A stretch of DNA of 45,136 nt from Bacteroidota bacterium (GTDB lineage Bacteria > Bacteroidota > Bacteroidia > AKYH767-A > JAHEYN01), in contig JAHEYN010000021.1 in NCBI GenBank assembly GCA_023251555.1, positions 1 through 45,136 of the forward strand. Reading direction: 5' to 3'. Under the pieces are notes generated by a model. That model searched no databases. It was not told the DNA's origin and saw nothing but the letters and a program-made list of their open reading frames with translations. The number at the start of each line of letters is the position of its first letter. The stretch's first letter is position 1. Shown here piece by piece: positions 4,979 through 36,924 of the stretch. The position numbers and the translations under genes are program-made.

Positions 4979-5854
4979 GTGAAAAAAGTATATGCCATCT
5001 GTGCCGTTGCTGCTGTATTCTTTTGTCTTCCGGTCTTTTTCTTATCGTGTGAGTTGCTGGATCCGGAGCTGAAAATTCCAGCCTACATACACATCGACAG
5101 CATCCCCCTTGCTGCCGATTACGGGACCCAGGGATCCTCATCTGCCCGGATTGCCGATGCATGGGTGTACAGCGATGAAAAACTGGTGGGAGTGTTTGAA
5201 CTGCCGTGTACCCTTCCCTTGCTTGCCTCCGGGAATCATGATCTTCTTATAAAAGCAGGGATCATCATGGACGGGATGGCAGCGACCCGCGGACCTTACC
5301 CGTTTTATACTATTTACGGGCAGCCTGTTGCACTTACGGCGGGCAGCGTGATTAATATCAACCCTTTAGTTGCATACTATCCTGCCACTGTTTTCGAATG
5401 GATCGAAGACTTTGACAAGCCGGGGATCACGATAAAGAGTACTGCTAAAAGCGATACAAGCGTGCTGATACAGAAAGTTCATGGCGACTCGGCTTTTGAG
5501 GGAGGCACATCCGCATATGTTTCCATGAACCGGAACAATGTGATATTTGAATGTGAAAACACCTCCTGCATTTCCCTGCCGAAAGGAGGAGCATCCGTAT
5601 ACCTGGAGTTAAACTACAAGACCAACTGGCAGGTTGTTACAGGCCTCATAACGTTTGACCTGGCAGGGTCAATCCAGGAACCGGTTGTAATACTGAATCC
5701 CACGGCTACCTGGAAGAAAATATACATAAGCCTTACAGATATGGTCAGTTCCCACCCTGATGCCCTTTGCTACCGGGTATTTTTTGGACTCTCAAATACT
5801 GCTTCGGCAGAAAAAATAGAATTATATTTGGATAATATTAAACTTGTCCACTAA
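4979..5854 (+). CDS. Predicted lipoprotein of unknown function
   Basis: A 291-residue protein starting at GTG one base after the upstream stop. A hydrophobic leader ends at FFLSC, with Cys24 as the likely lipidation site. The mature part has no family I recognise. It is beta-rich, with a middle segment (VFEWIEDFDKPGITIKS, then YVSMN and VYLELNYKTNW) and a C-terminal SAEKIELYLDNIKLVH typical of a jelly-roll or carbohydrate-binding-like fold. It is sandwiched between a sugar dehydrogenase and a polyprenyl-phosphate glycosyltransferase, so an envelope or polysaccharide role is plausible but only inferred. Confidence 0.75.
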   Translation: MKKVYAICAVAAVFFCLPVFFLSCELLDPELKIPAYIHIDSIPLAADYGTQGSSSARIADAWVYSDEKLVGVFELPCTLPLLASGNHDLLIKAGIIMDGMAATRGPYPFYTIYGQPVALTAGSVININPLVAYYPATVFEWIEDFDKPGITIKSTAKSDTSVLIQKVHGDSAFEGGTSAYVSMNRNNVIFECENTSCISLPKGGASVYLELNYKTNWQVVTGLITFDLAGSIQEPVVILNPTATWKKIYISLTDMVSSHPDALCYRVFFGLSNTASAEKIELYLDNIKLVH

Positions 5855-11402: not shown

Positions 11403-11985
11403 TCTGCTGGTCTTTCAGGCTGATGGTGCCTTTGATGTTGAATATCTTATACCTGGTGAATTCCTGGTTTGACTCAAAGCCGTCTCCGTAAATAATTTCA
11501 TCTGCAGTGGTTATCCGGACAAACTCCTGCGAATAAATCATTTGTTTCTGTTCATCCCAGATCAGTTGTTCGGTGTTAAGTTTCTCTCCCTTTTCATTCA
11601 CTACTATCACATTTCTTTTAGCCTCCATCGTTCTTTCATTTTCACGCCTGATGGCGTAATTGGATGTCAGCCATGAACGGATTTTTTTGTCTTCCCCGAA
11701 GAAAAGTATTTTAACCCCTTTAGGCATCTCTATATAAGGATCTTTCCCGGTATACCGATCCATAATGGGGCTGTTCACCTGCATCTGTAAATTCCCGGAG
11801 TCGCTGTAAAGGATATTAATGTTTTTTGCAGATTCCGAAGGCAGGTTATCTCTCTGCGTGATGATTTTTATTTTTTCAATATCATTTTCGCAGGCGGCTA
11901 TGAAAGCGAAGAGAAGAAAGGCTGTTGCGAGGAAAAAATAATTTCTTCCTGCGGGCATCAGTTGAATTTTTTTGAATCGAACCAT
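11383..11985 (-). CDS. lptC: LPS export protein LptC
   Basis: A 200-residue protein whose order and motifs fit LptC, the inner-membrane-anchored periplasmic bridge that takes LPS from LptBFG to LptA. The hydrophobic leader ends at FIAAC (Cys32 from the first ATG), so here it is probably lipid-anchored, as often in Bacteroidota, rather than held by a membrane helix. The beta-jellyroll follows: SDSGNLQMQVNSPIMDRY, MPKGVKILFF, AIRRENERTMEAKRNVIVV, LNTEQLIWDEQ, ITTADEIIYGDGFESNQE. A second ATG at 11958 overlaps the upstream stop as TGATG and also leaves a good leader; the two starts cannot be separated by sequence. Confidence 0.88.
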   Translation of the reverse strand: MVRFKKIQLMPAGRNYFFLATAFLLFAFIAACENDIEKIKIITQRDNLPSESAKNINILYSDSGNLQMQVNSPIMDRYTGKDPYIEMPKGVKILFFGEDKKIRSWLTSNYAIRRENERTMEAKRNVIVVNEKGEKLNTEQLIWDEQKQMIYSQEFVRITTADEIIYGDGFESNQEFTRYKIFNIKGTISLKDQQNAPQNP

Positions 11986-13304
11986 TTGTCGTTAAAAGTA
12001 AAGCCTGCAACCACCCTGGTATATCGTTCCATTATAAGCCCGCTGCCGAGCGTTCCCCTTCTTCCTGTTTCAACCGCAATATTTATTACGGCACCTATTT
12101 TCCTGAGTGGGATACCTGCTCCCAGTGAAAAGCCGTAGTCATTAAGCCGGAGACCTTTGAGCTGCAGGTATGTTTTCTCATAATGGAATCCTGCCCGGTA
12201 ATGGATTGTGTTCAGCAGTTTTTTATCATCGGGCCCCCCCGGAGTGAATTGGCATCCAGTGCTGAGGTGCATACTGTTGGAGAGATCATCATGCTGCCCG
12301 AAGAAACTGAATGAAGACCAGTTTTGCGTTACGGCATCTGCGCCGAACACCCACCGCATCCCTTTCCTGAATACAATGCCGGCCCCTGTGTATTGCGGCA
12401 TGGTCATGCTTCCTGAATTATTTCCCGGAACGAGTTCGGGGATTGTGTCTTTTATTACCCCGATAACATTTCCCGCGCTCCCTGTTTTGTTCATGTATCT
12501 TTCTGTTAATGTATCGCTGCTGCAGCTTATTTTCCCGGGGAGGGAAGCCACGATTCCCGTGGTGATACTCCATTCTCCTGCGAGGGGGATGGTGTATTGC
12601 ACTCCTGCATTGAATAATAGTCCTCCCGCGGAGATGCGGTTAGTGATGCGGGTGTTGAATATATTTGCGGAGTCCGGAATTTCTACGGATCGTCTTTTCA
12701 TGATTTCGCCAAAAACATAAGACATATTGAACCCTGCCGAGAAGCCGCTGAGCATTTTCCAGGCTGCTCCTGCATAAAGAGTATTAAGCCCGCCGGCCCC
12801 TTCATAGAGGTATTTGGTCTTACCGATGTTGTCAGTCACCTCTTCGCTGGAAACCCTGTATCCCACACTGCTCACGGGGAGCAGTCCTATGCTGGTTCCC
12901 CACCCGGGCGAAACCGGGAAAGCAAAGGCGAGTGATGTAAGAGAGGTGTTGTTCCTGAGAACCGAGGTGTCGGAAGTGCTCATGGTGGTAAAATTGCTGC
13001 TCACTCCGGTAGAGAAGGTGGTAATATCAACGGAGGAGTAGGAGGCAGGGTTAAGGGTGTTGATGCTTCGTGTGCTTCCGGAGGCGAGGCCTAATCCGCC
13101 CATCCCGGTGTTTTCTGCAAATCCGCCGTAACGAAGGTCGCCTATCCCGTAACGGGAATAAGGAGAAACGGATCCTGTGGTTTGTGCAAGGGGTTGCTGA
13201 GATACGGAAAGGAGGATGAGTGTAAGCACGGTAAGGGAAAGGAGGGAAGTCCGGATTGACACAGAGAAACCATGCATAAAGGAAGACTTATTTTTTATTC
13301 TCAT
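11958..13304 (-). CDS. Outer-membrane beta-barrel protein ('SPYSRYGIGDL' family)
   Basis: A 448-residue protein with a long signal peptide ending near QPLAQ and the N-terminal SPYSRYGIGDLRYGGFAENTG block, followed by GGLGLASGSTRSINTLNPAS, a pattern common in Bacteroidota outer-membrane proteins distantly like FadL/PorV. The remainder alternates beta strands and ends in GFTFNDKWF plus a short tail. Its function is unknown. It overlaps coaX by 17 bases and lptC by up to 28, so it is co-translated with an LPS export protein; an envelope role is likely, the precise one is not. Confidence 0.82.
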   Translation of the reverse strand: MRIKNKSSFMHGFSVSIRTSLLSLTVLTLILLSVSQQPLAQTTGSVSPYSRYGIGDLRYGGFAENTGMGGLGLASGSTRSINTLNPASYSSVDITTFSTGVSSNFTTMSTSDTSVLRNNTSLTSLAFAFPVSPGWGTSIGLLPVSSVGYRVSSEEVTDNIGKTKYLYEGAGGLNTLYAGAAWKMLSGFSAGFNMSYVFGEIMKRRSVEIPDSANIFNTRITNRISAGGLLFNAGVQYTIPLAGEWSITTGIVASLPGKISCSSDTLTERYMNKTGSAGNVIGVIKDTIPELVPGNNSGSMTMPQYTGAGIVFRKGMRWVFGADAVTQNWSSFSFFGQHDDLSNSMHLSTGCQFTPGGPDDKKLLNTIHYRAGFHYEKTYLQLKGLRLNDYGFSLGAGIPLRKIGAVINIAVETGRRGTLGSGLIMERYTRVVAGFTFNDKWFDSKKFN

Positions 13305-14380: not shown

Positions 14381-14794
14381 TTATTTATTCACAGATTCTA
14401 GTAAATCCATAGTGGTTTTCAAAGCATTGGGATTTGTCATGAGGTCAATTAAAATGAGAGATTTTTCGCAATTATTTTTTTCTAAAATCTGTCTTTCGCT
14501 TTCCAAAACAAAATCATCTATCCAAAGAAAGTTGCTTTTAAAATTTATAGCCTCTGTCTTCAGCGTATTCCAGTCCGTTGCATTTATTTTCTCGACACAG
14601 TGGATTAAGGATTCTGAATAATAACTTTTTAAATATCTTAAAGGATCGGCTTTGTCGCCTTTGCAGTGGGTTGTTAGCCAGTAACAATCAAAATTTATAG
14701 AAATAAAAGAAACAAATTTTTCTGCGTGATGGGGGAGAGTTTGATTCTTTGTAAGAAGTACGCCATCAATGTCTATATATAAGACAGGCTTCAT
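14381..14794 (-). CDS. HAD-superfamily-like small protein
   Basis: A 137-residue protein beginning MKPVLYIDIDGVLLTKN, the DxDGV motif I of HAD phosphatase-like proteins, with WLTTHC near residue 39 as motif II and FLWIDDFV near 90 as the acidic motif IV. It has no obvious cap domain, so it is a minimal HAD fold; substrate unknown. Its ATG overlaps the stop of the Bro-N gene (ATGA, 14791-14794), so the two are co-translated. The region is visibly richer in A+T than its flanks. Confidence 0.75.
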   Translation of the reverse strand: MKPVLYIDIDGVLLTKNQTLPHHAEKFVSFISINFDCYWLTTHCKGDKADPLRYLKSYYSESLIHCVEKINATDWNTLKTEAINFKSNFLWIDDFVLESERQILEKNNCEKSLILIDLMTNPNALKTTMDLLESVNK

Positions 14795-15630
14795 TTTCTC
14801 AAAGATTTTCTTTTATTGGATTCGGTCAATATTTTATAATTTTCTTTGCTCACAATTTTTTTACCTGATTTTTTTTCCAAATCCTTGCGGGCTTTTCCGG
14901 CTACACTTCCACCTTCTCTTGCAGCCTGTTTGTTTTGTTTAAAACCATTTGCATTTTTATTCCGGGCAATTTCGGTGGTGGATGCTTCTCCCAGCATGGT
15001 AAAAATGAGCTCAAGATCAGTCATGTGATCCCGGAGGTTTTCATTGGGCTTAGCCAGCCCTTTTAGATTTTTATACGCCGATGGCGTTAATCCGAAAGTT
15101 GCCCTGCTAATCTCTGCGGTTAAAATGCTGTATTCTTTCCCTTCTTTTACACCTCTCTTCTGCCATTCGTTTGTGAGTTCGTCCCGTACAACAATGCCAC
15201 GTATGCGTTTTTCGATCCATTCATCACTGTATCCTTTGGCTTTGTATGTTTCTCTTATACGCTGCTGCGCCAACTCAGGATTTTCAATTTCTTCCATGCG
15301 CTGATAACCAACTTGTGCCAGCCATTGTTTAAAGGGTTCTGCTTTGGGTGAGGGTATGGATTGGATCAATCGAAGCAATTGTTCTGTATTACCCACGTCC
15401 GTATGATAAAACTTGCCATCGGCAGACTGCATTTTCAGTTGACTACAATTTGTAGCCAACTGACTTCCTTCCTGTTTAAGCCTTGTTTTCAGCACACTCC
15501 AATATTTTCGTGGATTAGGGCTTTCCGTTAATACTTCAATAACATCTACAATGCTGAAATACCACTTTTGTTTCTGCTCATTCCAGGCGGAACGTATTTT
15601 TTTGCTTTCAAATAATTTTATGTTGCTCAT
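14791..15630 (-). CDS. Bro-N domain protein (phage antirepressor/DinD-like)
   Basis: A 279-residue protein. The N-terminal segment KLFESKKIRSAWNEQKQKWY, then FSIVDVIEVLTESPNPRKYW, matches the Bro-N domain of phage antirepressors. The middle has EPFKQWLAQVGYQRMEE and an ISRATFGLTPSAYKNLKGL block seen in chromosomal Bro-N/DinD-like proteins. The C-terminus is lysine-rich (GKARKDLEKKSGKKI), probably nucleic-acid binding. Such proteins occur in prophage and mobile regions and as chromosomal orphans. No phage structural or integration genes are nearby. It is coupled to the HAD-like gene downstream by an ATGA overlap. Confidence 0.85.
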   Translation of the reverse strand: MSNIKLFESKKIRSAWNEQKQKWYFSIVDVIEVLTESPNPRKYWSVLKTRLKQEGSQLATNCSQLKMQSADGKFYHTDVGNTEQLLRLIQSIPSPKAEPFKQWLAQVGYQRMEEIENPELAQQRIRETYKAKGYSDEWIEKRIRGIVVRDELTNEWQKRGVKEGKEYSILTAEISRATFGLTPSAYKNLKGLAKPNENLRDHMTDLELIFTMLGEASTTEIARNKNANGFKQNKQAAREGGSVAGKARKDLEKKSGKKIVSKENYKILTESNKRKSLRK

Positions 15631-26007: not shown

Positions 26008-27873
26008 ATGGCTTCGAAAAAAGCAGAAGGAAGCGCAGGCGCCTACACCGAAGAAAGCATCCGATCGCTCGATTGGAAAGAGCATATTCGCCTCCGCCCC
26101 GGGATGTACATCGGTAAGCTGGGCGACGGCTCCTCGAAGGACGATGGCGTATATGTTCTCCTCAAGGAGGCTATAGACAATTGCATTGACGAGTTTACAA
26201 TGGGCTTCGGAAAGACCGTTGAGATTAACATAGAAAACGGAAAGGTTGAGGTGCGTGATTACGGAAGAGGCGTTCCCCTTGGAAAAGTCGTTGATGTGGT
26301 CTCGAAAATCAATACCGGCGCGAAGTACGATTCTACTGTTTTTCAGAAATCCGTGGGACTGAACGGCGTGGGGACAAAAGCAATCAATGCCCTGTCTGAT
26401 TATTTTATGATACAGGCTTTCAGGGATGGGAAAACAAAAATTGCCGAGTTCAGCAAGGGAGAGCTTCGTAAAAACGAAAGGGAAAAAAATACGGACCAGA
26501 AAAACGGCACTCTCATTGCTTTTGTGCCCGATGCGGAAATGTTCGGAAGCTACCATTTTAACTCGGAGTATGTTGAAAATATGCTGTGGAACTATGTTTA
26601 CCTGAACGTAGGGCTGACCATTGTTTTTAACGGCAATAAATATTATTCCGAAAACGGACTGCTCGACCTCCTGAAAAGAAATCTCAGCGACAACCCGCTT
26701 TATCCGGTAATACACCTTAAAGACAAGGATATAGAGATAGCCTTCACACATACCAGCCAGTACGGGGAAGAATATTTTTCTTTTGTCAACGGGCAGCACA
26801 CAACACAGGGGGGCACGCATCTCGCAGCCTTCAGGGAAGCGCTTGTCAAAACAGCAAGAGAGTTTTACAAAAAAGACTTCGATCCCAGCGACATACGTTC
26901 ATCTGTTTTTGCGGCCCTGAGTATCCGCATACAGGAGCCGGTATTTGAGTCCCAGACCAAAACAAAACTCGGCTCACAGGCAGTAACTCCCAACGGCCCT
27001 AATCTCAGGAACTGGATCAATGACTTTGTAAAGACAGAACTTGATAATTATCTCTATAAAAATCCAGCGATTGCCGATGCCTGGCTCCAGAAGATACTTC
27101 AGTCGGAACGCGAGCGAAAAGAAATTGCAGGTATTAAGAAACTTGCCAATGAGCGGGCGAAAAAAGCAAATCTTCACAACAGGAAACTGCGCGACTGCAG
27201 GGTGCATCTTAATTCCAGGGAGGATCAGGCTCTTGAATCCACACTTTTTATCACTGAAGGAGATTCCGCCAGCGGATCGCTTACCATGGCAAGGAGCGTT
27301 GCCACGCAGGCGGTTTTTAGTCTCAAGGGAAAACCGCTTAACTGTTACGGTCTTACAAAAAAAATTGTGTACGAAAACGAAGAGTTTAATCTCCTCATTA
27401 ATGCGGTCGGAATTGAAGAAGGCATGGAAAACCTGCGCTACAACCGCGTGGTTATTTCTACGGATGCGGATGTTGACGGCATGCATATAAGACTTCTCCT
27501 GCTTACCTTTTTTCTCCAGTTTTACCCGGACCTGGTGAGGAACGGCCACCTGTACATTCTTCAGACACCCCTTTTCCGGGTTAGAAATAAAAAAGAAACC
27601 ATTTACTGTTATTCGGATTCTGAGCGTCTCAGGGCAATTGAAAAGCTGGGGCCTAAGCCGGAGATAACACGCTTTAAAGGGCTCGGAGAAATTTCGCCCG
27701 ATGAATTCGGGAATTTCATAGGGAAAAAGATCCGCCTTGAGCCTGTGATTCTTTCACAGGACACCTCACTCCATGAACTCCTTGACTATTACATGGGAAA
27801 GAATACGCAGGAACGCCAGGACTTTATCATTGACCGCCTGCGGGTGGAGAAGGATATTCCGCTGCCTGCCTGA
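26008..27873 (+). CDS. parE: DNA topoisomerase IV subunit B
   Basis: A 621-residue type IIA topoisomerase B subunit, which supplies the ATPase and TOPRIM parts for decatenating replicated chromosomes. Motifs in order: [16 protein letters not shown], the GHKL Bergerat fold [10 protein letters not shown] with VRDYGRGVP and [28 protein letters not shown] in the transducer, [15 protein letters not shown] (TOPRIM Glu) and [15 protein letters not shown] (metal-binding DxD), and [13 protein letters not shown] near the end. The length is of the short ParE form, not the long GyrB. parC follows 14 bases later, which with the parC features supports Topo IV over gyrase. Confidence 0.93.
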
Positions 27874-27887
27874 CCTGAAAAACTGCA

Positions 27888-30128
27888 ATGGCAAAAAAAA
27901 AAATAACTCCTTCAGATAAACTGCTTCCGGTACCGGAAGCGCCTCCTGCTGCCCCTTCCCCCGAAAAAGGAACAGGGCTTTCGCATATCACCCCGGTTAC
28001 CGGCCTTTACGAGAACTGGTTTCTTGATTATGCCTCCTATGTGATACTCGAAAGGGCTGTGCCTTATGTTGACGACGGGCTCAAGCCCGTCCAGCGAAGG
28101 ATTCTTCATGCCATGAAGGAACTCGAAGACGGCCGCTTTAACAAGGTCGCCAATATCATAGGGCAGACCATGAAGTATCACCCCCATGGCGATGCTTCCA
28201 TCGGGGAAGCCATCGTGCAGATCGGACAGAAAAATCTCCTCATAGAAACCCAGGGCAACTGGGGAAATATATATACCGGCGATACCGCGGCTGCTCCCCG
28301 TTATATTGAGGCAAGAATATCAAAATTCGCTCTTGATGTTGTTTTCAACGATAAAACAACTTCCTGGAAGAAATCATATGACGGCAGAAATGATGAACCA
28401 TTAACCCTCCCCGTGAAATTTCCGCTCCTTCTTGCACAGGGAGTGGAAGGCATAGCTGTAGGGCTTGCCTGCAAAATTATGCCGCATAACTTCTGTGAAC
28501 TGATTGAGGCTTCCATCGCTATGCTCAGGAAGAAGCCCGTTAATCTCATGCCAGACTTTCCTACCGGTGGCATCGGCGATTTTTCCCAGTATAATGAAGG
28601 CCTCCGGGGCGGAAGAATCAGAGTGAGGGCCTGTATAGAAAAAAGAGACAGAAAAACACTTGTAATTACCGAGGTGCCGTTCGGCACTACCACCACCACC
28701 CTTATAGATTCCATCATCACCGCGAATGAAAAGGGAAAGATAAAAGTGAAAAAGATAGAAGATAACACCTCCGATAAGGTTGAAATTTTTCTTCATCTTC
28801 ATTCTGACTCATACGAGGATATTGACAAAACAATCAACGCCCTCTATGCTTTTACGGATTGCGAAGTGGGCATCTCTCCCAATTCATGTATTATCCGCGA
28901 TGACAAACCGCATTTTGTAAGCGTAAATGAGATTTTGAAAATATGCACGCAGAATACGGTACAGCTTCTGAAGAGAGAACTTGAAATTCGCCTTGCGGAA
29001 CTTCAGGAAGCCTGGCATTTTTCCTCTCTCGAAAAAATATTTATAGAGAAACGGATTTATCGCGATATTGAAGAATGCGAAACATGGGAAAGCATAATAG
29101 AAACAATTGATAAGGGCCTGAAGCCTTATAAAAAGCGTTTCAGGAGAGAAATTACCGTTGAGGATATTACGAAACTCACCGAAATAAAAATTAAACGCAT
29201 CTCTAGGTTTGATGCTAAAAAAGCGGATGAATATATCCGTTCCCTTGAAGATGAAATGGCTAAGGTAAATCACAACCTTGAGCATCTTACGGCTTATGCC
29301 GTTGATTACTATAAAGGCCTGCTTAAAAAATATGGCAAGGGAAGGGAGCGTAAAACAAAAATATCCGGATTCGGCACTATTAACGCCCGCGAAGTGGTTA
29401 TAGCCAACGAAAAGCTTTATGTAAACAGGGATGAGGGCTTTGCAGGTTTTTCCATGAAGAAGGATGAATTTGTGTGCGAATGCTCGGATATTGATGATAT
29501 CATTGTTTTCAGAGAAGACGGGAGTTTTATTGTTACAAAAGTTGCCGATAAAAAATATGTGGGGAAAAATGTCCTTCATATCGCTATCTTCAAAAAAGAG
29601 GAAGAGAAACAAATATATAACCTTGTATACAGGGATGGCCTGAAAGGAAATGTGATGGTGAAAAGGTTTGAGGTGGGGGGAATTACACGCGATAAAGAAT
29701 ATTCACTCACGAGAGGATCTGCAGGCTCAAAGGTCCTGTACTTCTCCATACAGGAAGGCAGTATGGGAGAGTCCGTGACCATTCACCTGAAACCTAAGCC
29801 CAAGCTGAGAAAGACAACATTTGATTTTAATTTTAACGAGCTGGCGGTCAAAGGAAGATCTTCTGTTGGCAATATTCTGAGCCGAAACCCTGTGCAGAAG
29901 ATTACCAGGATACCTGCATCCAAAGCACCGAAAGGAGTTATTCAGCCCGTTGCGCCTCCCGTTGACAAGGCTGTGCCTGATGCCCCGCCTCCCGTTCCCG
30001 GCTCTCCCGGGAAGGACAGGAAGCCGGCCTCACCGCCTGTTTCTAAAGCTGCAACTCCGCAACCGGCGAAAAAATCCAGACGGGGGAAGTCTAAAAAAAG
30101 TCCTCCCGATCAGATGAAACTTTTTTAA
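27888..30128 (+). CDS. parC: DNA topoisomerase IV subunit A
   Basis: A 746-residue type IIA topoisomerase A subunit. The breakage-reunion domain has YASYVILERAVPYVDDGLKP, QRRILHAMKELEDGRFNKVA, YHPHGDASIGEAIV and AAPRYIEARIS with the catalytic tyrosine at residue 139. The C-terminal beta-pinwheel is short and lacks a recognisable GyrA box, so it is assigned as ParC. After about residue 665 a roughly 80-residue tail rich in Pro, Ala and Lys ends in a lysine-rich stretch and MKLF. The stop TAA is formed by the first bases of repeat copy E, so the repeat touches the end of the gene. Confidence 0.92.
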   Translation: MAKKKITPSDKLLPVPEAPPAAPSPEKGTGLSHITPVTGLYENWFLDYASYVILERAVPYVDDGLKPVQRRILHAMKELEDGRFNKVANIIGQTMKYHPHGDASIGEAIVQIGQKNLLIETQGNWGNIYTGDTAAAPRYIEARISKFALDVVFNDKTTSWKKSYDGRNDEPLTLPVKFPLLLAQGVEGIAVGLACKIMPHNFCELIEASIAMLRKKPVNLMPDFPTGGIGDFSQYNEGLRGGRIRVRACIEKRDRKTLVITEVPFGTTTTTLIDSIITANEKGKIKVKKIEDNTSDKVEIFLHLHSDSYEDIDKTINALYAFTDCEVGISPNSCIIRDDKPHFVSVNEILKICTQNTVQLLKRELEIRLAELQEAWHFSSLEKIFIEKRIYRDIEECETWESIIETIDKGLKPYKKRFRREITVEDITKLTEIKIKRISRFDAKKADEYIRSLEDEMAKVNHNLEHLTAYAVDYYKGLLKKYGKGRERKTKISGFGTINAREVVIANEKLYVNRDEGFAGFSMKKDEFVCECSDIDDIIVFREDGSFIVTKVADKKYVGKNVLHIAIFKKEEEKQIYNLVYRDGLKGNVMVKRFEVGGITRDKEYSLTRGSAGSKVLYFSIQEGSMGESVTIHLKPKPKLRKTTFDFNFNELAVKGRSSVGNILSRNPVQKITRIPASKAPKGVIQPVAPPVDKAVPDAPPPVPGSPGKDRKPASPPVSKAATPQPAKKSRRGKSKKSPPDQMKLF

Positions 30129-30321: not shown

Positions 30322-31227
30322 ATGAGCCGGCGTAAAGAAGAAAGAACAAACAAAAGTAAAAAACTTGTAATTGCAGGTCCCTGCAGCGTGGAAAGTGAAG
30401 AGCAGATTCACTTTCTGGCCGGTTTGCTTTCAGATATCAAACAGGTGCAGGTTCTCCGCGGGGGAATATGGAAGGCAAGGACCAGGCCGGGAGGCTTTGA
30501 GGGACACGGTAATATTGCGCTGAAGTGGCTTTCGGAGGCAGGTAAGGCGCATAATCTTCTCACTGCAACGGAGGTTGCGACCCCGGCACACGCCGAAGAA
30601 GCGCTTAAGCAGGGGATTGATATTCTCTGGATAGGATCGCGATCCGTGGGCTCCCCTTTTGTTGTAGAAGATCTGGCTGAGTCAATTTCGGGATGCAGGA
30701 ACAGGATCATGATTAAAAATCCGACCAGCCCCGACCTTTCTTTGTGGATAGGGGCTATTGAGCGTTTCTCACTGAAAAACATCCCGAATATTGGTGTGAT
30801 CCACAGAGGCTTTTCCACCAACTGGAAGTCGGAATACCGCAATGAACCCAAATGGGAAATTGCCCTGGAGCTGAAAAAAGTTTTTCCGGATATTCCTGTT
30901 ATCGTTGACCCCAGTCATATAGGGGGGAAAGCACGTCTGGTTGAAGGCATTTCCTCGTACGCCATGAATCTGGGTTTTGACGGGTTAATGGTGGAAGTCC
31001 ACGAGGACCCCGGGAAAGCCCTTACCGATTCACTCCAGCAAATCACCCCTGCAGCCCTCGGAAACATGCTGAAAAAACTACAGGGAAAAGCTTTGCGCAA
31101 GCCGGGAAAAAAACTTCTTGAAACGCTCCGTGTCAGGGAATGGATGAATGACATTGCGCTCACTCACCGCCTACTCACCGAAGCAAAGGCCGGCCTTTCA
31201 GTAAAAACGAAGTCAATAAAAGTTTAA
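30322..31227 (+). CDS. 3-deoxy-7-phosphoheptulonate (DAHP) synthase, without a visible chorismate mutase domain
   Basis: A 301-residue enzyme joining phosphoenolpyruvate and erythrose 4-phosphate, the first step of the shikimate pathway. It has KKLVIAGPCSVESEEQIH at the N-terminus, the RTRPGGFEGHG loop, IGSRSVGSPFVVEDLAES, MIKNPTSPDLSLWIGAIERF, GVIHRGFST and VDPSHIGGKARLV. The common Bacteroidetes form is fused to a C-terminal chorismate mutase of about 90 residues. Here only about 45 basic residues follow the LTPxxL region and no mutase motif is visible. I take the ATG at 30322; a TTG at 30277 is in frame. It lies five bases before an unknown gene and near a chorismatase-like gene. Confidence 0.9.
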   Translation: MSRRKEERTNKSKKLVIAGPCSVESEEQIHFLAGLLSDIKQVQVLRGGIWKARTRPGGFEGHGNIALKWLSEAGKAHNLLTATEVATPAHAEEALKQGIDILWIGSRSVGSPFVVEDLAESISGCRNRIMIKNPTSPDLSLWIGAIERFSLKNIPNIGVIHRGFSTNWKSEYRNEPKWEIALELKKVFPDIPVIVDPSHIGGKARLVEGISSYAMNLGFDGLMVEVHEDPGKALTDSLQQITPAALGNMLKKLQGKALRKPGKKLLETLRVREWMNDIALTHRLLTEAKAGLSVKTKSIKV

Positions 31228-31232
31228 AACTG

Positions 31233-33188
31233 ATGCCCATGTCCTCCGGTAATGAAATCATTTATTCGTTAATCAGGAGGAGCAGGAACAGGGCAGGTCG
31301 CATTCTGGCGGGAGATTTGTCGTCTGTATGGACATACAGGACAGCCAGGCAGTTGCAGGATCGCATGAATCATTTTTCATGTACCTGGGTGGCCATTCTC
31401 GTAGATGAAAACACCTGCTTTGAAAAAATTCCCCGACTGCTTCCGCCGCATGTTAAAATAGCCGGGTACTACAGCTTTTCGCTTGATACAATAGGAACAA
31501 CCGTCAATGGATTTACCGTTCAGCCGGTGATGCAGGGAAAAGTCCCCGTGGAGGTTGACGCATGGCTGCTGTTTGCCCATAATGATTTTGCAGGTTATTC
31601 CCTCAGCAGCTTTCTTCTTGAAACGGGAAAGGCGCAACAGGCGGTATTATGGGGGCTTAATTCCCCGTCAGGAACGACGTACTACTCTTATATTGATTTC
31701 TTTCATAATGAGCAGCAGAAAACCATAGTGCAGATTCATAATTATTTTAAAAGATGTTATGGGATACCTTTTCCGGTCGATATAAAATATACGCTGAGAT
31801 CTTTGTCAGGAGAGATTGCCTCTGCCGGGCAGTTCATCATTCCTCCAAATGGAGTGTACACTGTTTCGGGCAGCGATTTTAAGATTTCTTCATTTGAAGG
31901 TTATCTTGAAATAGAATTTGATATCACTACCCGTGTGATGCCCTTCCTGCATTATTACGCTACTTATATCTCTGAAAATTCTATTGCATGCAACCATCAG
32001 TCGGGGCTGGGTCTGCAGCAGGCAGGGAGTGTCTTTGCAAGAGGCTATATCCCGGCTGATGAGAAAGAAACAATGATGCTCTGTCTTTTCCAGAGGCATT
32101 ATGATCAGCCTGTTGTAACAAAGGGTACACTACGTTATACGGAGGGCTCTTCTGAAAAGATCCTTACAAAAGAACTTCCGGGCGTAAAGAAAAATCATGT
32201 GATTTACACAGACGTTAAAAAACTGTTTCCTGAAATTGACTTCACTAAGATCACTGGTCCTTCCCTGTACGTGAGCTCTCCCGTGCCCCTGCACAGGCCT
32301 AACTTTTTCTATAAGCGCTATGATGCGGAAGGCTTTTATGATGTGACCCATTCGGCTGGAGAACAGGAGGTTGCTGCCGTATATACAAAGGGAGAGTTAA
32401 AAAAGATAGAAGAAATGGGCTATATTCCCCTGCAAACAGGCTGCCTGGTAATGCCGCCGGGAATGGGAATTACCTCCTTAGTGGGTTTATGGCAGAATGC
32501 TAATGATAGGATAAGAAAATTCTGTTTTGAATTTTATGATACCGGGGGGGATCTGAAGTTTTCCAGAGAAGAAGTTTTTGATCCAGCACATGGAACCTAT
32601 CTCAATATTAACAGGTATCTTGAAAAGTACAATGTTGAGCTTTCTGCAGGGACATTTATTATGCGTGCTGCAGAGAGCTCCGGCAATATTCCCAAAGGCT
32701 TTCTTGCCAACGTCGGATACAGATCGGAGAAAAGAGATTACATGTCAAGCACTGCCACCGGCCTTGGCTTTGCTAATTCTTCATTTTATTTTAACGGAGG
32801 TCCGTCAGGCTATATAGGAAAAGGCGTTTTACACACTTCTGATATCTACGGACCCGGGAGGGTTTCGGATGATTTTGACACCTGTTTTCTTCTCGGATGT
32901 CCTTCTTCTGAAAAGGAAGCAAAGAAAAAACAGGTCAGCTATGAAATCAGCATATATAACAGCATGGGAGAGGAGCGTAAGCTTAATAAAAAAATTTTCA
33001 TGCAGGGCTCGGCGTTTCTCAGCTTGTCTGAGCTGGTAAAAGAAAGCAAGCATTATTCTGATGATGGTTCCTATTGTGTATGGTTTTATTCACCCGAAGC
33101 CTTTATTTATGCGTACTGGCTTTTGTACCGTAAGTCTGACGGGGCCATTACCGTTGAACATTGCTACGGCGGAAAATACGGCTTATGA
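31233..33188 (+). CDS. Unrecognised 651-residue protein with four similar beta-rich repeats
   Basis: I recognise no family. There is no signal peptide, so it is probably cytoplasmic. Residues 48-145 look like a small alpha/beta domain (WVAILVDEN, HVKIAGYYSF, VDAWLLFAHNDFAG). After that four segments share one plan, at about 163-258, 281-378, 415-512 and 548-648. Each starts with a strand such as IVQIHNYF, LCLFQRHY, LWQNANDR or ISIYNSMG, continues with a charged-turn strand pair, then a hydrophobic YIEIEF/CVWFYS-like strand and an aromatic (YYATYIS, YAYWLLY) strand. It sits five bases after the DAHP synthase gene, and its stop overlaps the start of the chorismatase-like gene (ATGA), so a shared pathway is likely; a scaffold or ligand-binding role is only a guess. 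Confidence 0.7.
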   Translation: MPMSSGNEIIYSLIRRSRNRAGRILAGDLSSVWTYRTARQLQDRMNHFSCTWVAILVDENTCFEKIPRLLPPHVKIAGYYSFSLDTIGTTVNGFTVQPVMQGKVPVEVDAWLLFAHNDFAGYSLSSFLLETGKAQQAVLWGLNSPSGTTYYSYIDFFHNEQQKTIVQIHNYFKRCYGIPFPVDIKYTLRSLSGEIASAGQFIIPPNGVYTVSGSDFKISSFEGYLEIEFDITTRVMPFLHYYATYISENSIACNHQSGLGLQQAGSVFARGYIPADEKETMMLCLFQRHYDQPVVTKGTLRYTEGSSEKILTKELPGVKKNHVIYTDVKKLFPEIDFTKITGPSLYVSSPVPLHRPNFFYKRYDAEGFYDVTHSAGEQEVAAVYTKGELKKIEEMGYIPLQTGCLVMPPGMGITSLVGLWQNANDRIRKFCFEFYDTGGDLKFSREEVFDPAHGTYLNINRYLEKYNVELSAGTFIMRAAESSGNIPKGFLANVGYRSEKRDYMSSTATGLGFANSSFYFNGGPSGYIGKGVLHTSDIYGPGRVSDDFDTCFLLGCPSSEKEAKKKQVSYEISIYNSMGEERKLNKKIFMQGSAFLSLSELVKESKHYSDDGSYCVWFYSPEAFIYAYWLLYRKSDGAITVEHCYGGKYGL

Positions 33189-34354
33189 TCTCGCATAATA
33201 AAGTCAATTCTAACGTCCGCTGCTCTGTTTATCCGGGGCGGGATGGGTTTACTGAATATTTCTTTGTAATAACATGCCGTGATAAAAAAGACTTTTCATA
33301 TATTCTTAATGATTTGGAGAAATCACTCAGGCATGCGGTATCGGAGTTTGATATTCCGGTTGAAAGCTGCGTATTTTCGAGGTTCTATCTCTCCGACATA
33401 GCTAACCAGGAAAATATTCTGCGGAACTCCACGGTTTATAATTCCCTGAGCTGCTCATCACGTTCTCTTATAGAACAGCCTCCGGTAGATGGTAAAGTAA
33501 CGCTCTTAACATATCACCTTTCTCCCGTGAGTTTATACAGGCCGTTGAAAAAAATCAGGGGCAGTGGAGAGGAGAATCTGTTTCTGAAAACCCAAAACTA
33601 TTCCCTTTTATATACGGTTAACAGCACAGCACCGGCTCCAGGGAAACCCTCGGTACAAACAGAAAAGATATTCAGGAAGTATAAGAAGAATATTTCTTTG
33701 CGAAAGATGACTCTTCTCAGGAATACCATCAGGACATGGATTTATGTACGGGATATTGACAATAATTACATGAAGATGTCTGACAGCCGGAAAAGACTCT
33801 TCAGGCAGGAAGGGCTTAATTTCCGTACTCGCTACATTGCCAGCACGGGAATAGAAGCAAGGATGAATAACCATTCCTCTCTTGTTTCAATGGATGCGAT
33901 ATCCTTATCAGGCATTGACAGGGAGCAGATCGTCAGCATGCATGCTCCCGGTAAGATGGGTTCCACCCACGACTATGGTGTAACATTTGAAAGGGGAACA
34001 AGGGTCAGGTTTGGCGACAGGTCTCATCTGTATATATCCGGTACGGCAAGCATCAACACTGCCGGCAATATCCTCCACCTGTACGATCCGGAGGGGCAGG
34101 CCCGGCGCACAATTAAAAATATCAGGGCGCTTTTATCAGCACAGGGAGCAGGTTTCATGGATGTCGCATACATGATAGTGTACCTTAGAAACACCGGTGA
34201 TGCATCCGTTGTTTCCAAAGTAGTCACGGAATCCGTTCCCGGGAATATTCCTTTGGTTTTTGTGCAGGCTGCAGTATGCAGGCCTGGCTGGTTGGTGGAA
34301 ATAGAATGTGTGGCTGTTAAGCCCGACAAAAACGGATTCAAGCCCTTCGCATGA
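33185..34354 (+). CDS. Chorismatase-family protein (FkbO/Hyg5/XanB2-like)
   Basis: A 389-residue protein with two Rid-fold halves. The N-terminal half has GFTEYFFVITC and CVFSRFYLSDIANQ. The C-terminal half has RTWIYVRDIDNNY (183-195), RYIASTGIEAR (216-226), STHDYGVTFERGTRVRFGDR (260-279), LYISGTASINTAGNIL, IVYLRNTGDA and CRPGWLVEIEC (365-375). These match chorismatases, which split chorismate into pyruvate plus 3- or 4-hydroxybenzoate or a dihydroxycyclohexadiene acid. Glutamates 372 and 374 lie where the family's catalytic Glu is expected. Product type cannot be told. The ATG at 33185 overlaps the upstream stop; the longer TTG start at 33161 is less likely. A DAHP synthase lies two genes upstream. 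Confidence 0.85.
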   Translation: MISHNKVNSNVRCSVYPGRDGFTEYFFVITCRDKKDFSYILNDLEKSLRHAVSEFDIPVESCVFSRFYLSDIANQENILRNSTVYNSLSCSSRSLIEQPPVDGKVTLLTYHLSPVSLYRPLKKIRGSGEENLFLKTQNYSLLYTVNSTAPAPGKPSVQTEKIFRKYKKNISLRKMTLLRNTIRTWIYVRDIDNNYMKMSDSRKRLFRQEGLNFRTRYIASTGIEARMNNHSSLVSMDAISLSGIDREQIVSMHAPGKMGSTHDYGVTFERGTRVRFGDRSHLYISGTASINTAGNILHLYDPEGQARRTIKNIRALLSAQGAGFMDVAYMIVYLRNTGDASVVSKVVTESVPGNIPLVFVQAAVCRPGWLVEIECVAVKPDKNGFKPFA

Positions 34355-34423
34355 CGTTGCTTCAGGAGGCCGCTTTTTTCCTTTACTGCTTTGTATTACA
34401 TTTACAACATGCCCTCCGCCCGG

Positions 34424-35878
34424 ATGAGAAAAAAGATAATAATTCCCCTCGCGTTTATTTTTTTCAATACCCCCTGCGCATTTTCTCTGCAGGCCTATTT
34501 TTCCTATGCTGTATTTCATTCACCGGGGCATGGAAGTTATATAGAAACCTATCTCCTTGTTGACGGCAGGTCCGTTGCATACAACAGGAATCCGGATGGA
34601 AACCTGCAGGGAAAGGTAGCGGTCTCTATCCGTTTTTCGGGAAAGGATTCTGTCGCCTACGATGACAAATATAACCTGCTCAGTCCGGGCATTACAGATA
34701 CCGCAGGAAAAGTCATAGACTTCATTGACCAGCAGAGGATATGGCTGCCGGATGGTACTTATCTTCTTGAACTATCTGTTTCCGATAAAAACAAAAACGA
34801 CGGAATATTCCGTGATACCGTGAAGATAGATATTGCATGCCCGCCCGGCAGTGTTTCGCTTTCGGACATAGAATTTATTTCTGCCTATTCAAAGTCACTG
34901 AAACCAAACATTACCACGAAGAATGGCTTTGATATGCTCCCGCACGTGAGTAACTTTTACCCTTCTTCCGACAGCATCATTGGCTTCTATGCGGAAATCT
35001 ATAATACAGATAAGGCACCCGGCCGCGACACATGCATCGTGTCCTGGTTTATATGCCAGGCGGCAGGTATGAACATTGTTCCGGAATCAGGCGGTTTTGT
35101 AAAAAAAGTTTCAGCGGGAGTGAATCCTCTTCTTGCGGAGATCGCCATAAAAGATCTCCCCTCGGGTAATTATTATCTTATCGTGCAGGTGAAAAGCAGG
35201 AAAAATGAAGTCCTTGCATCAAAAAAGATTTTCTTCCAGCGAAGTAATATTCATGCAGAAAATACAGCCATGGCTTCCGGGAACAGCGTTGAAAACACTT
35301 TTGCTTCAGTCATCACATCAGTGGATACACTTACTGATTATATAGAATCACTGCGCCCTGTCTCCGATACATATGAGGTTTATTATGCGGTGAACCAGCT
35401 GAACCGTTCAGACCTGAAGCTGATGCAGCAGTTCTTTTATGAATTCTGGATAAAACGTAAGAGGGAAAACCCTTTCGGGGCATGGAGTGATTACCTCGCA
35501 GAGGTGAGAAAGGTAAATGCCGCATACGGCAGTGGCATAATTAAAGGATATGCCACCGACCGCGGAAGGATATACCTCCGCTACGGGCCTCCCAATTCAA
35601 TCTCAGGCGATACCCATGACCCCAGTGCATTTCCTTATGAAATATGGCATTATTATCATATTAAAAACAAGACAAACAGGAGGTTTGTTTTTTATAACCC
35701 GGAACTGGCCGGAAACAATTACATACTGCTTCATTCTGATTTCCCGGGTGAGTTGTACGATGCCCAGTGGCAGCTCAAGCTGCATAAGCGCGATACGCAG
35801 ACCAATGACATGGATACCCAGTCATATCCTGAACATTTCGGCGGAAAATCCAATGATCTGTTTAAAAACCCGAGGTAA
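34424..35878 (+). CDS. GWxTD-domain secreted protein
   Basis: A 484-residue protein starting MRKKIIIPLAFIFF, with a signal peptide ending near CAFSLQA. The middle is beta-rich. The C-terminal GWxTD domain is seen as VNAAYGSGIIKGYATDRGRI, then YLRYGPPNSISG, PYEIWHYYHI and NRRFVFYNPELAGNNYILLH, with GYATD standing where GWxTD is usual. The domain is common in Bacteroidota and Acidobacteria; its function is unknown. An in-frame ATG at 34409 and a TTG at 34391 are alternative starts. The glycosyltransferase gene begins 11 bases after its stop. Confidence 0.87.
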   Translation: MRKKIIIPLAFIFFNTPCAFSLQAYFSYAVFHSPGHGSYIETYLLVDGRSVAYNRNPDGNLQGKVAVSIRFSGKDSVAYDDKYNLLSPGITDTAGKVIDFIDQQRIWLPDGTYLLELSVSDKNKNDGIFRDTVKIDIACPPGSVSLSDIEFISAYSKSLKPNITTKNGFDMLPHVSNFYPSSDSIIGFYAEIYNTDKAPGRDTCIVSWFICQAAGMNIVPESGGFVKKVSAGVNPLLAEIAIKDLPSGNYYLIVQVKSRKNEVLASKKIFFQRSNIHAENTAMASGNSVENTFASVITSVDTLTDYIESLRPVSDTYEVYYAVNQLNRSDLKLMQQFFYEFWIKRKRENPFGAWSDYLAEVRKVNAAYGSGIIKGYATDRGRIYLRYGPPNSISGDTHDPSAFPYEIWHYYHIKNKTNRRFVFYNPELAGNNYILLHSDFPGELYDAQWQLKLHKRDTQTNDMDTQSYPEHFGGKSNDLFKNPR

Positions 35879-35889
35879 GAAAAAATACA

Positions 35890-36924
35890 ATGCAGGCAGC
35901 ATCTAAAACAGCGGTGGTTATCCTCAACTGGAACGGGAAAGATTTTCTTGCCCGCTTTCTCCCGGGGCTCATATCGGGCACGCCCTCCGGAACACGGATA
36001 ATTATTGCAGACAATGGTTCTTCGGATGATTCTGTCCGTTTTGTGCAGGAAAATTTTCCAGCAGCAGGGATTATCAGACTCGGTAAAAATTACGGGTTTT
36101 CAGGGGGCTACAATGAGGCGCTCCTGAAAGTGGAAGCCGAATATTTTCTTCTCCTCAATTCTGATGTGGAGGTAACCCCGGGATGGCTTGAACCTCTTGA
36201 GGAGCTGATGGATACAGATAAGAAGATTGCCGCCTGCCAGCCTAAAATCAGGTCGCTCTCGGAACGGGAAAAGTTCGAGTATGCCGGTGCTGCGGGAGGA
36301 TTTATTGACTCATACGGGTACCCGTTTTGCCGCGGGCGGATATTTTCTTCCGTCGAAGAAGACCATGGGCAATATGATGATGAGACAGAAATTTTATGGG
36401 CAAGCGGAGCTTGTATGATGGTCAGGGCGGAATATTTTAAAGCTGCGGGCGGCTTCGACGGAGACTTTTTTGCACACATGGAAGAGATTGACCTGTGCTG
36501 GAGATTCAGGAACATGGGCTATAGAGTGCTTTACTGCCCGCATTCCATGGTTTTTCATTTGGGAGGGGGAACGCTGCCAAGGAAAAATCCCCGCAAAACA
36601 TATCTTAATTTCAGGAACAATCTCGTAATGCTTTTCAAAAATCTGCCCTCATCAAGAATGATTCCTGTGTTTGTTTTACGTTTCATCTTCGATGGCATTG
36701 CAGGGTTAAAGTTTCTCCTTACAGACCACTACCTTGACTGCTTTGCGGTGCTGCGCGCTCATTTTTATTTTTATTTTCACCTTCCCCGCCTGCTGAAAAA
36801 AAGGAGAGCATGCAGAAAATCTTTGCCCCGGCACGGAAAAAACCCGATGTTCGGAGGAAATATTGTGTTGGAGTATTTTGTGATGGGGAAGAAAAGATTC
36901 AGTGATATTGCCCCTGGCAAATAG
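35890..36924 (+). CDS. Family 2 glycosyltransferase (rhamnosyltransferase-like)
   Basis: A 344-residue inverting GT-A enzyme. It begins AVVILNWNGKDFLARFLPGL, then IIIADNGSSDDSV, LGKNYGFSGGYNEALLKV, FLLLNSDVEVTPGWLEPL (DxD-like SDV), GACMMVRAEYFKAAGGFD and HMEEIDLCWRFRNMGYRV with the catalytic-base region. The subfamily includes rhamnosyltransferases and galactofuranosyltransferases building O-antigen. A C-terminal hydrophobic helix near 255-275 suggests membrane association. It runs 11 bases after the GWxTD gene and converges with the aminotransferase 7 bases away. The acceptor is unknown. Confidence 0.92.
   Translation: MQAASKTAVVILNWNGKDFLARFLPGLISGTPSGTRIIIADNGSSDDSVRFVQENFPAAGIIRLGKNYGFSGGYNEALLKVEAEYFLLLNSDVEVTPGWLEPLEELMDTDKKIAACQPKIRSLSEREKFEYAGAAGGFIDSYGYPFCRGRIFSSVEEDHGQYDDETEILWASGACMMVRAEYFKAAGGFDGDFFAHMEEIDLCWRFRNMGYRVLYCPHSMVFHLGGGTLPRKNPRKTYLNFRNNLVMLFKNLPSSRMIPVFVLRFIFDGIAGLKFLLTDHYLDCFAVLRAHFYFYFHLPRLLKKRRACRKSLPRHGKNPMFGGNIVLEYFVMGKKRFSDIAPGK

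Follow-up and report, generated by a model that had tools for sequence, protein, structure and literature searches.

A tightly packed unit of a mutase-less DAHP synthase, an orphan protein and a chorismatase-like protein in one Bacteroidota genome

The closest described counterparts of the locus presented here are the chorismatases FkbO, Hyg5 and XanB2/ArcB and the fusions of DAHP synthase with chorismate mutase (DAHPS-CM) of Bacteroidota. Xanthomonas makes pigment and ubiquinone from the 3- and 4-hydroxybenzoate that XanB2 provides, and 4-hydroxybenzoate, the precursor of the quinone ring, is itself derived from chorismate. In Hyg5, Glu334 is the acid that protonates chorismate, and Gly240 and Cys327 are residues of the 3-hydroxybenzoate type, or type II (PMC7170507). 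Oxygen-independent ubiquinone synthesis from 4-hydroxybenzoate is the function of UbiTUV (PMC6747719), and the U32 enzymes TrhP and RlhA, related to UbiUV, need prephenate, a need raised as a possibility for UbiUV as well (PMC6599085, PMC10470549).

Overall, we describe a three-gene locus that is real and unusual and that was seen in one genome. The arrangement of its genes suggests a private branch leading to an aromatic compound. The broader result, as read from sequence comparison, is a chorismatase-like subfamily that stands apart from the characterised enzymes and has respiratory and quinone-related neighbours.

Layout of the unit and its first two genes

The window, which is the whole 45,136-nucleotide stretch of DNA that was analysed, belongs to a genome of 2.84 Mb (55 contigs, 97% complete). 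Its three genes of interest (Table 1) were found at the positions given in a preliminary description, and the labels attached to them hold good with the exception of the term "repeat". Gene 1 ends 5 bases before the start of gene 2, genes 2 and 3 overlap by ATGA, and the single transcript that had been proposed is supported by this spacing; the three tightly packed genes are likely an operon. Codon usage scored +0.14 to +0.21 per codon in frame for genes 1 to 3, the two remaining forward frames giving -0.28 to -0.50, so the 651-aa open reading frame is not a chance reading frame, and it was coding-like in all five genes when the GWxTD and glycosyltransferase genes were included. No terminator-like site was seen on the + strand in the gap before the GWxTD gene, the GC check for recent acquisition gave no clear step, and the three-gene locus showed no synteny in relatives.

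Table 1. Features of the three-gene unit and its flanks (window positions)
Feature	Position	Strand	Size	Evidence or remark
parE-parC	26008-30128			precede the three-gene unit
Gene 1, DAHP synthase, C-terminal chorismate mutase domain lost	30322..31227 (ATG 30322, TAA 31227)	+	301 aa	PF00793 1.2e-32
Gene 2, orphan protein	31233..33188	+	651 aa	codon usage coding-like; no match in any library
Gene 3, two-domain Rid/chorismatase-like protein	33185..34354	+	389 aa	Ribonuc_L-PSP, profile, active-site map, trees
GWxTD-domain protein, possible fourth gene of the unit	34409..35878	+		TIGR04514 5e-16; 54-base gap
Family 2 glycosyltransferase, possible fifth gene	35890..36924	+		PF00535 2.2e-20; 11-base gap

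The middle protein had been described as matching nothing recognisable, and this was borne out: no significant match was obtained in Pfam, NCBIfam, PHROGs, PDB or the genome, plasmid, phage and viral collections, and neither the order's other 41 genomes nor 394 other genomes of the phylum contain its gene. Its labelling as a repeat protein was not upheld, the best self-alignment scoring 36 and shuffled sequences 38 +/- 6. No signal peptide was apparent by eye, and single-sequence structure prediction was uninformative (pLDDT 34.8). The sole clue to the role of this protein is its membership of the operon.

Gene 1 certainly encodes a DAHP synthase, as had been recognised, and the enzyme is of type I beta: in addition to the PF00793 match, it carries all of the metal-ligand motifs GPCS, DPSH, VEVH and LTDS, the four ligands (Cys, His, Glu and Asp) being assigned from T. 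maritima DAHPS. Matches occur in 41 of the order's 42 genomes, and with a support of 100/100 the protein falls within the DAHPS-CM clade of the order, to whose members it is 45–53% identical over the DAHPS domain. Clade and ligands are thus shared with the Bacteroidota fusions, whereas gene 1 lacks the mutase half, is located outside the aroB-aroA operon where relatives carry DAHPS-CM, and is an extra copy in addition to a DAHPS of the other type. In the alignment, it stops shortly past the DAHPS domain, with a short tail in place of the mutase (301 aa against 341–406 aa in the aligned DAHPS-CM orthologues) and no C-terminal CM_2 domain. Its branch is very long (2.45, where the median is 0.33), and its mean identity to its kin is 49%, as against 62% among the kin themselves.

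Chorismate mutase of the CM_2 type (PF01817) was absent from the host genome and from the sole same-family genome (the pair G000/G001) and present in 11 of 11 further genomes from the order; 7 genomes of the order yielded no PDT. The second DAHPS of the host genome (at C55) is an ordinary one of the other type and adjoins a kdsC-like gene, a neighbourhood common to the host and the same-family genome; both family members own this second-type enzyme, the two being 83% identical over the aligned domain. Other genomes of the order carry DAHPS-CM before aroB-aroA, in some cases near a proline-dehydrogenase-like gene (names read from the sequences). No DAHPS separates aroA, aroB and the proline-dehydrogenase-like gene in the same-family genome, where the three are adjacent. 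As the simplest account, we infer a loss of DAHPS-CM from the aro operon of the family, the host having kept or regained a mutase-less copy elsewhere.

Relation of gene 3 to chorismatases and Rid proteins

Gene 3 matched Ribonuc_L-PSP at 2.2e-15 and, weakly, the FkbO/Hyg5 chorismatase model TIGR04444 at 5.5e-13, its 48.9 bits falling short of the curated cut-off of 325. Bacteroidota proteins that belong to the chorismatase clade also fail this cut-off, with 127 and 93 bits, so the cut-off is narrow. No match to the AroH family domain (PF07736) was obtained in the Pfam scan of gene 3. A profile built from gene 3 relatives in Bacteroidota genomes ranked Hyg5 (5ag3) at 1.2e-40 and FkbO (4bps) at 5.3e-32, the best single-domain Rid protein reaching 2.9e-16. 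Both 5ag3 and 5a3k are taken here to be Hyg5, which agrees with the numbering of Cys327 and Glu334.

As in FkbO, Hyg5 and XanB2/ArcB, two Rid-like domains are present in gene 3, with the equivalents of Glu334, Tyr147, Arg154, Arg220 and Arg328 aligned. Its Gly286, Cys365 and Glu372 align with Gly240, Cys327 and Glu334 of Hyg5, so that the Gly and Cys of the 3-hydroxybenzoate type are in place, with the reservation that the type of product cannot be predicted by alignment (PMC3949708). The pocket-region residues common to Hyg5 and FkbO are retained together with the catalytic glutamate, namely R128, W130, Y147, R154, T172-G173-I174, Y207 and F218, and further R220, S239, T241, A242, Q258, R328 and E334 (Hyg5 numbering); in the numbering of gene 3, the shared set includes Tyr195, Arg202, the TGI motif and Arg270. 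Because Rid proteins conserve Glu334 and Arg328 as well, these two residues do not prove lyase chemistry. Near the C-terminus, gene 3 has the substrate-binding arginine of RidA (Arg366, in VCR), and both this conserved arginine and the glutamate have a role in RidA (PMC4433059). For the C-terminal domain, the match to RutC/RidA is about as good as that to the chorismatase model.

Hyg5 and FkbO, the characterised chorismatases sampled here, formed one clade with five other sequences in trees of the full length (96/96) and of the C-terminal domain (98/98), and the window subfamily lay outside it. In the best tree of the C-terminal domain, gene 3 was placed with the chorismatases at 61/77, and its union with Rid proteins was not rejected (p 0.385). 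Single-sequence structure prediction of gene 3 was uninformative (pLDDT 32.6).

The preliminary description of gene 3 as chorismatase-like is supported, and full membership in the chorismatases is not. The protein keeps the shared active-site residues, including the equivalents of Gly240, Cys327 and Glu334; its identity with Hyg5 and FkbO is 24–25% over some 215 residues, and it sits outside their clade and remains far below the cut-off of the family model. The active-site comparison likewise revealed subfamily-wide changes relative to FkbO and Hyg5, among them the replacement of Asn131 by Ile, Phe or Tyr, of Asn137 by Asp, and of Asp325 by Pro, Ala or Asn.

Distribution and neighbours of the gene 3 subfamily

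Bacteroidales, plasmids of Acidiphilium and Acidithiobacillus and a deltaproteobacterium from a cockroach carry relatives of gene 3 at 32–37% identity; together these proteins form one clade (96/98), of which the window protein is the deepest branch. The order's other 41 genomes contain no full-length chorismatase-like gene, and no relatives turned up when the genome and viral contig collections were scanned for patterns, whether with individual proteins or with the alignment of the subfamily. In a small search of the chorismatase literature, from which many journals were missing, no description of this subfamily was found.

The three genes had been expected to stay together in other genomes. 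Surveys of the order (41 genomes), of the phylum (394) and of 20 loci contradict this: across 20 chorismatase-like neighbourhoods of 14.8–29 kb each, neither a DAHPS nor a relative of the 651-aa protein was present. Since the trio was seen only in the host genome, conserved co-occurrence fails.

On Acidiphilium pACMV3 and the Acidithiobacillus plasmid, the subfamily gene directly follows ubiT-ubiU-ubiV and precedes pdxS-pdxT, the ubiT, ubiU and ubiV genes of pACMV3 scoring above the cut-offs of NCBIfam equivalog models. Genes for anaerobic ribonucleotide reductase lie near this array on both plasmids (L056:11324-16872 and L061:11324-16873). The cluster looks like a plasmid-borne anaerobic ubiquinone module that would have its own source of hydroxybenzoate (or prephenate). 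In Bacteroidales (L057, L060, L072, L073 and L023), the subfamily gene is accompanied by genes for a porin, an imelysin, a di-haem oxidoreductase and a CxxCH lipoprotein, and some of the Bacteroidales loci also carry a CcsA/ResB cytochrome assembly gene. The subfamily gene of another genome (G435) precedes DUF6057 and PD40 lipoprotein genes, a context common to more distant genes (G119 and G080). These neighbours point to quinone synthesis or to respiratory iron and haem systems, and not to antibiotics or pigments.

An aryl-polyene pigment had been suggested as the destination of the product. The host genome contains one ketoacyl synthase and relatives with additional ones contain 4–6, so the aryl-polyene reading is rejected on the strength of the single ketoacyl synthase, and the additional ketoacyl synthases of a flexirubin cluster are equally lacking; with no pigment cluster present, no hydroxybenzoate-using gene was identified either. 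In comparison with the role of XanB2 in Xanthomonas, the ubiquinone context of the relatives on acidophile plasmids is alike, whereas the extra ketoacyl synthases for a pigment are lacking in the host genome.

Several other loci were recorded in the course of the survey. In three Bacteroidota genomes (L021, L022 and L074), chorismatase-like genes adjoin those of DUF6057 membrane proteins and PD40 propeller lipoproteins. In Parabacteroides distasonis (L062:7746-18081), a chorismatase-clade gene lies between the genes of a YncE/di-haem protein and a large protein with a hydrazine synthase alpha middle domain and a formylglycine-enzyme-like domain, followed by CcsA/ResB. A member in G271 (L075:7064 onwards; G271:C2:295096-296164) is split into pieces by an internal TGA and is an apparent pseudogene. 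The homologue of Deltaproteobacteria bacterium Smac51 (L058:12217-15071) overlaps an upstream gene for a 580-aa protein by ATGA, as in the window; kinship of that protein with the 651-aa protein was considered in view of the same layout and rejected, as they have no sequence similarity.

Readings of the locus

A chorismate-directed pathway, as originally proposed, is still the simplest reading of the unit, because an extra DAHPS and a chorismatase-like protein in one tight unit amount to added chorismate supply plus consumption. We give a probability of about 0.4 to a lineage-specific chorismate branch in which the extra DAHPS would supply chorismate and gene 3 would convert it to a hydroxybenzoate-type product. 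Chorismate synthase is present in the host genome, so chorismate is probably available. The truncated DAHPS would add flux to chorismate, and gene 3 could then remove pyruvate to leave a 3- or 4-hydroxybenzoate-type acid, with Glu372 acting as the acid and the Tyr/Arg set as a carboxylate clamp; judged by the residue comparison, hydroxybenzoate and pyruvate would be its most likely products. Use or placement of the hydroxybenzoate-type product may fall to the 651-aa protein, perhaps in concert with the GWxTD protein and the glycosyltransferase. From the observed linkage of the genes we infer this chemistry, and the intact DAHPS ligands, the absent mutase half, the absence of CM_2 from both family members, the second DAHPS elsewhere in the genome, the retained pocket-region residues of gene 3 and the ubiT-ubiU-ubiV context of the acidophile genes all favour it. 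Against it stand the occurrence in one genome only, the conservation of Glu334 and Arg328 in Rid proteins, the placement outside the characterised clade, the unrejected union with Rid proteins, and the lack of an identified hydroxybenzoate-using gene and of DAHPS at other loci.

The unrejected union with Rid proteins also speaks for the possibility that gene 3 encodes a double-domain Rid imine/enamine hydrolase for damage control, not a chorismate enzyme, with the DAHPS an incidental neighbour. Its C-terminal domain fits RutC/RidA about equally well, the Rid arginine and glutamate (Arg366 and Glu372) are present, and pdxST follows the gene on the acidophile plasmids, Rid function being tied to PLP enzymes. 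We regard this as unlikely, yet deserving of some weight; the two-domain build, the Tyr195/Arg202/TGI/Arg270 set, the profile that ranks both chorismatases far above any Rid protein and the tight operon with DAHPS speak against it. Rather unlikely is the view that the unit is a decaying or transplanted remnant, a mutase-less DAHPS beside unrelated genes with no dedicated pathway. The long branch and low identity of gene 1, the relatives without synteny, the plasmid location of subfamily genes and the broken G271 copy agree with decay or transplantation; intact frames throughout, coding-like codon usage, the full set of DAHPS ligands and the tight spacing do not.

It could also be presumed that gene 3 replaces the lost chorismate mutase, turning chorismate into prephenate (or a related compound), so that DAHPS and mutase would persist as two genes and, on the acidophile plasmids, prephenate would serve the U32 hydroxylases UbiU-UbiV. 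The DAHPS without mutase in the same unit, the genome without CM_2 and the prephenate need of TrhP and RlhA, with the possibility raised for UbiUV, are consistent with this, and the Bacillus AroH mutase has the same trimeric Rid-like fold. It is nevertheless improbable: the same-family genome has neither CM_2 nor a homologue of gene 3, so the lineage lives without it, the 7 genomes searched for PDT had none, and the conserved glutamate is that of the pyruvate-removing enzymes.

The lineage-specific chorismate branch remains the preferred reading. A wider proposal, which we hold to be doubtful, is that the subfamily could be a new chorismate-processing enzyme on a double-Rid scaffold, acting either in place of a mutase or as a lyase that yields a new quinone-like or envelope aromatic; acidophiles would employ it in O2-independent quinone synthesis, and here it would be paired with a mutase-less DAHPS and an orphan in a new pathway. 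If the activity is confirmed, bacteria would have a further, UbiC-independent route to hydroxybenzoate (or prephenate), and a mutase-less DAHPS would be linked to a dedicated product.

Elsewhere in the window, two proteins without a Pfam match are encoded, one of 291 aa at 4979-5854 (+), between Gfo/Idh/MocA and sugar transferase genes, and one of 448 aa at 11958-13304 (-), between LptC-like and type III pantothenate kinase genes. A protein with a BRO-N domain, of a kind that is usually mobile or phage-related, is encoded at 14791-15630 (-).
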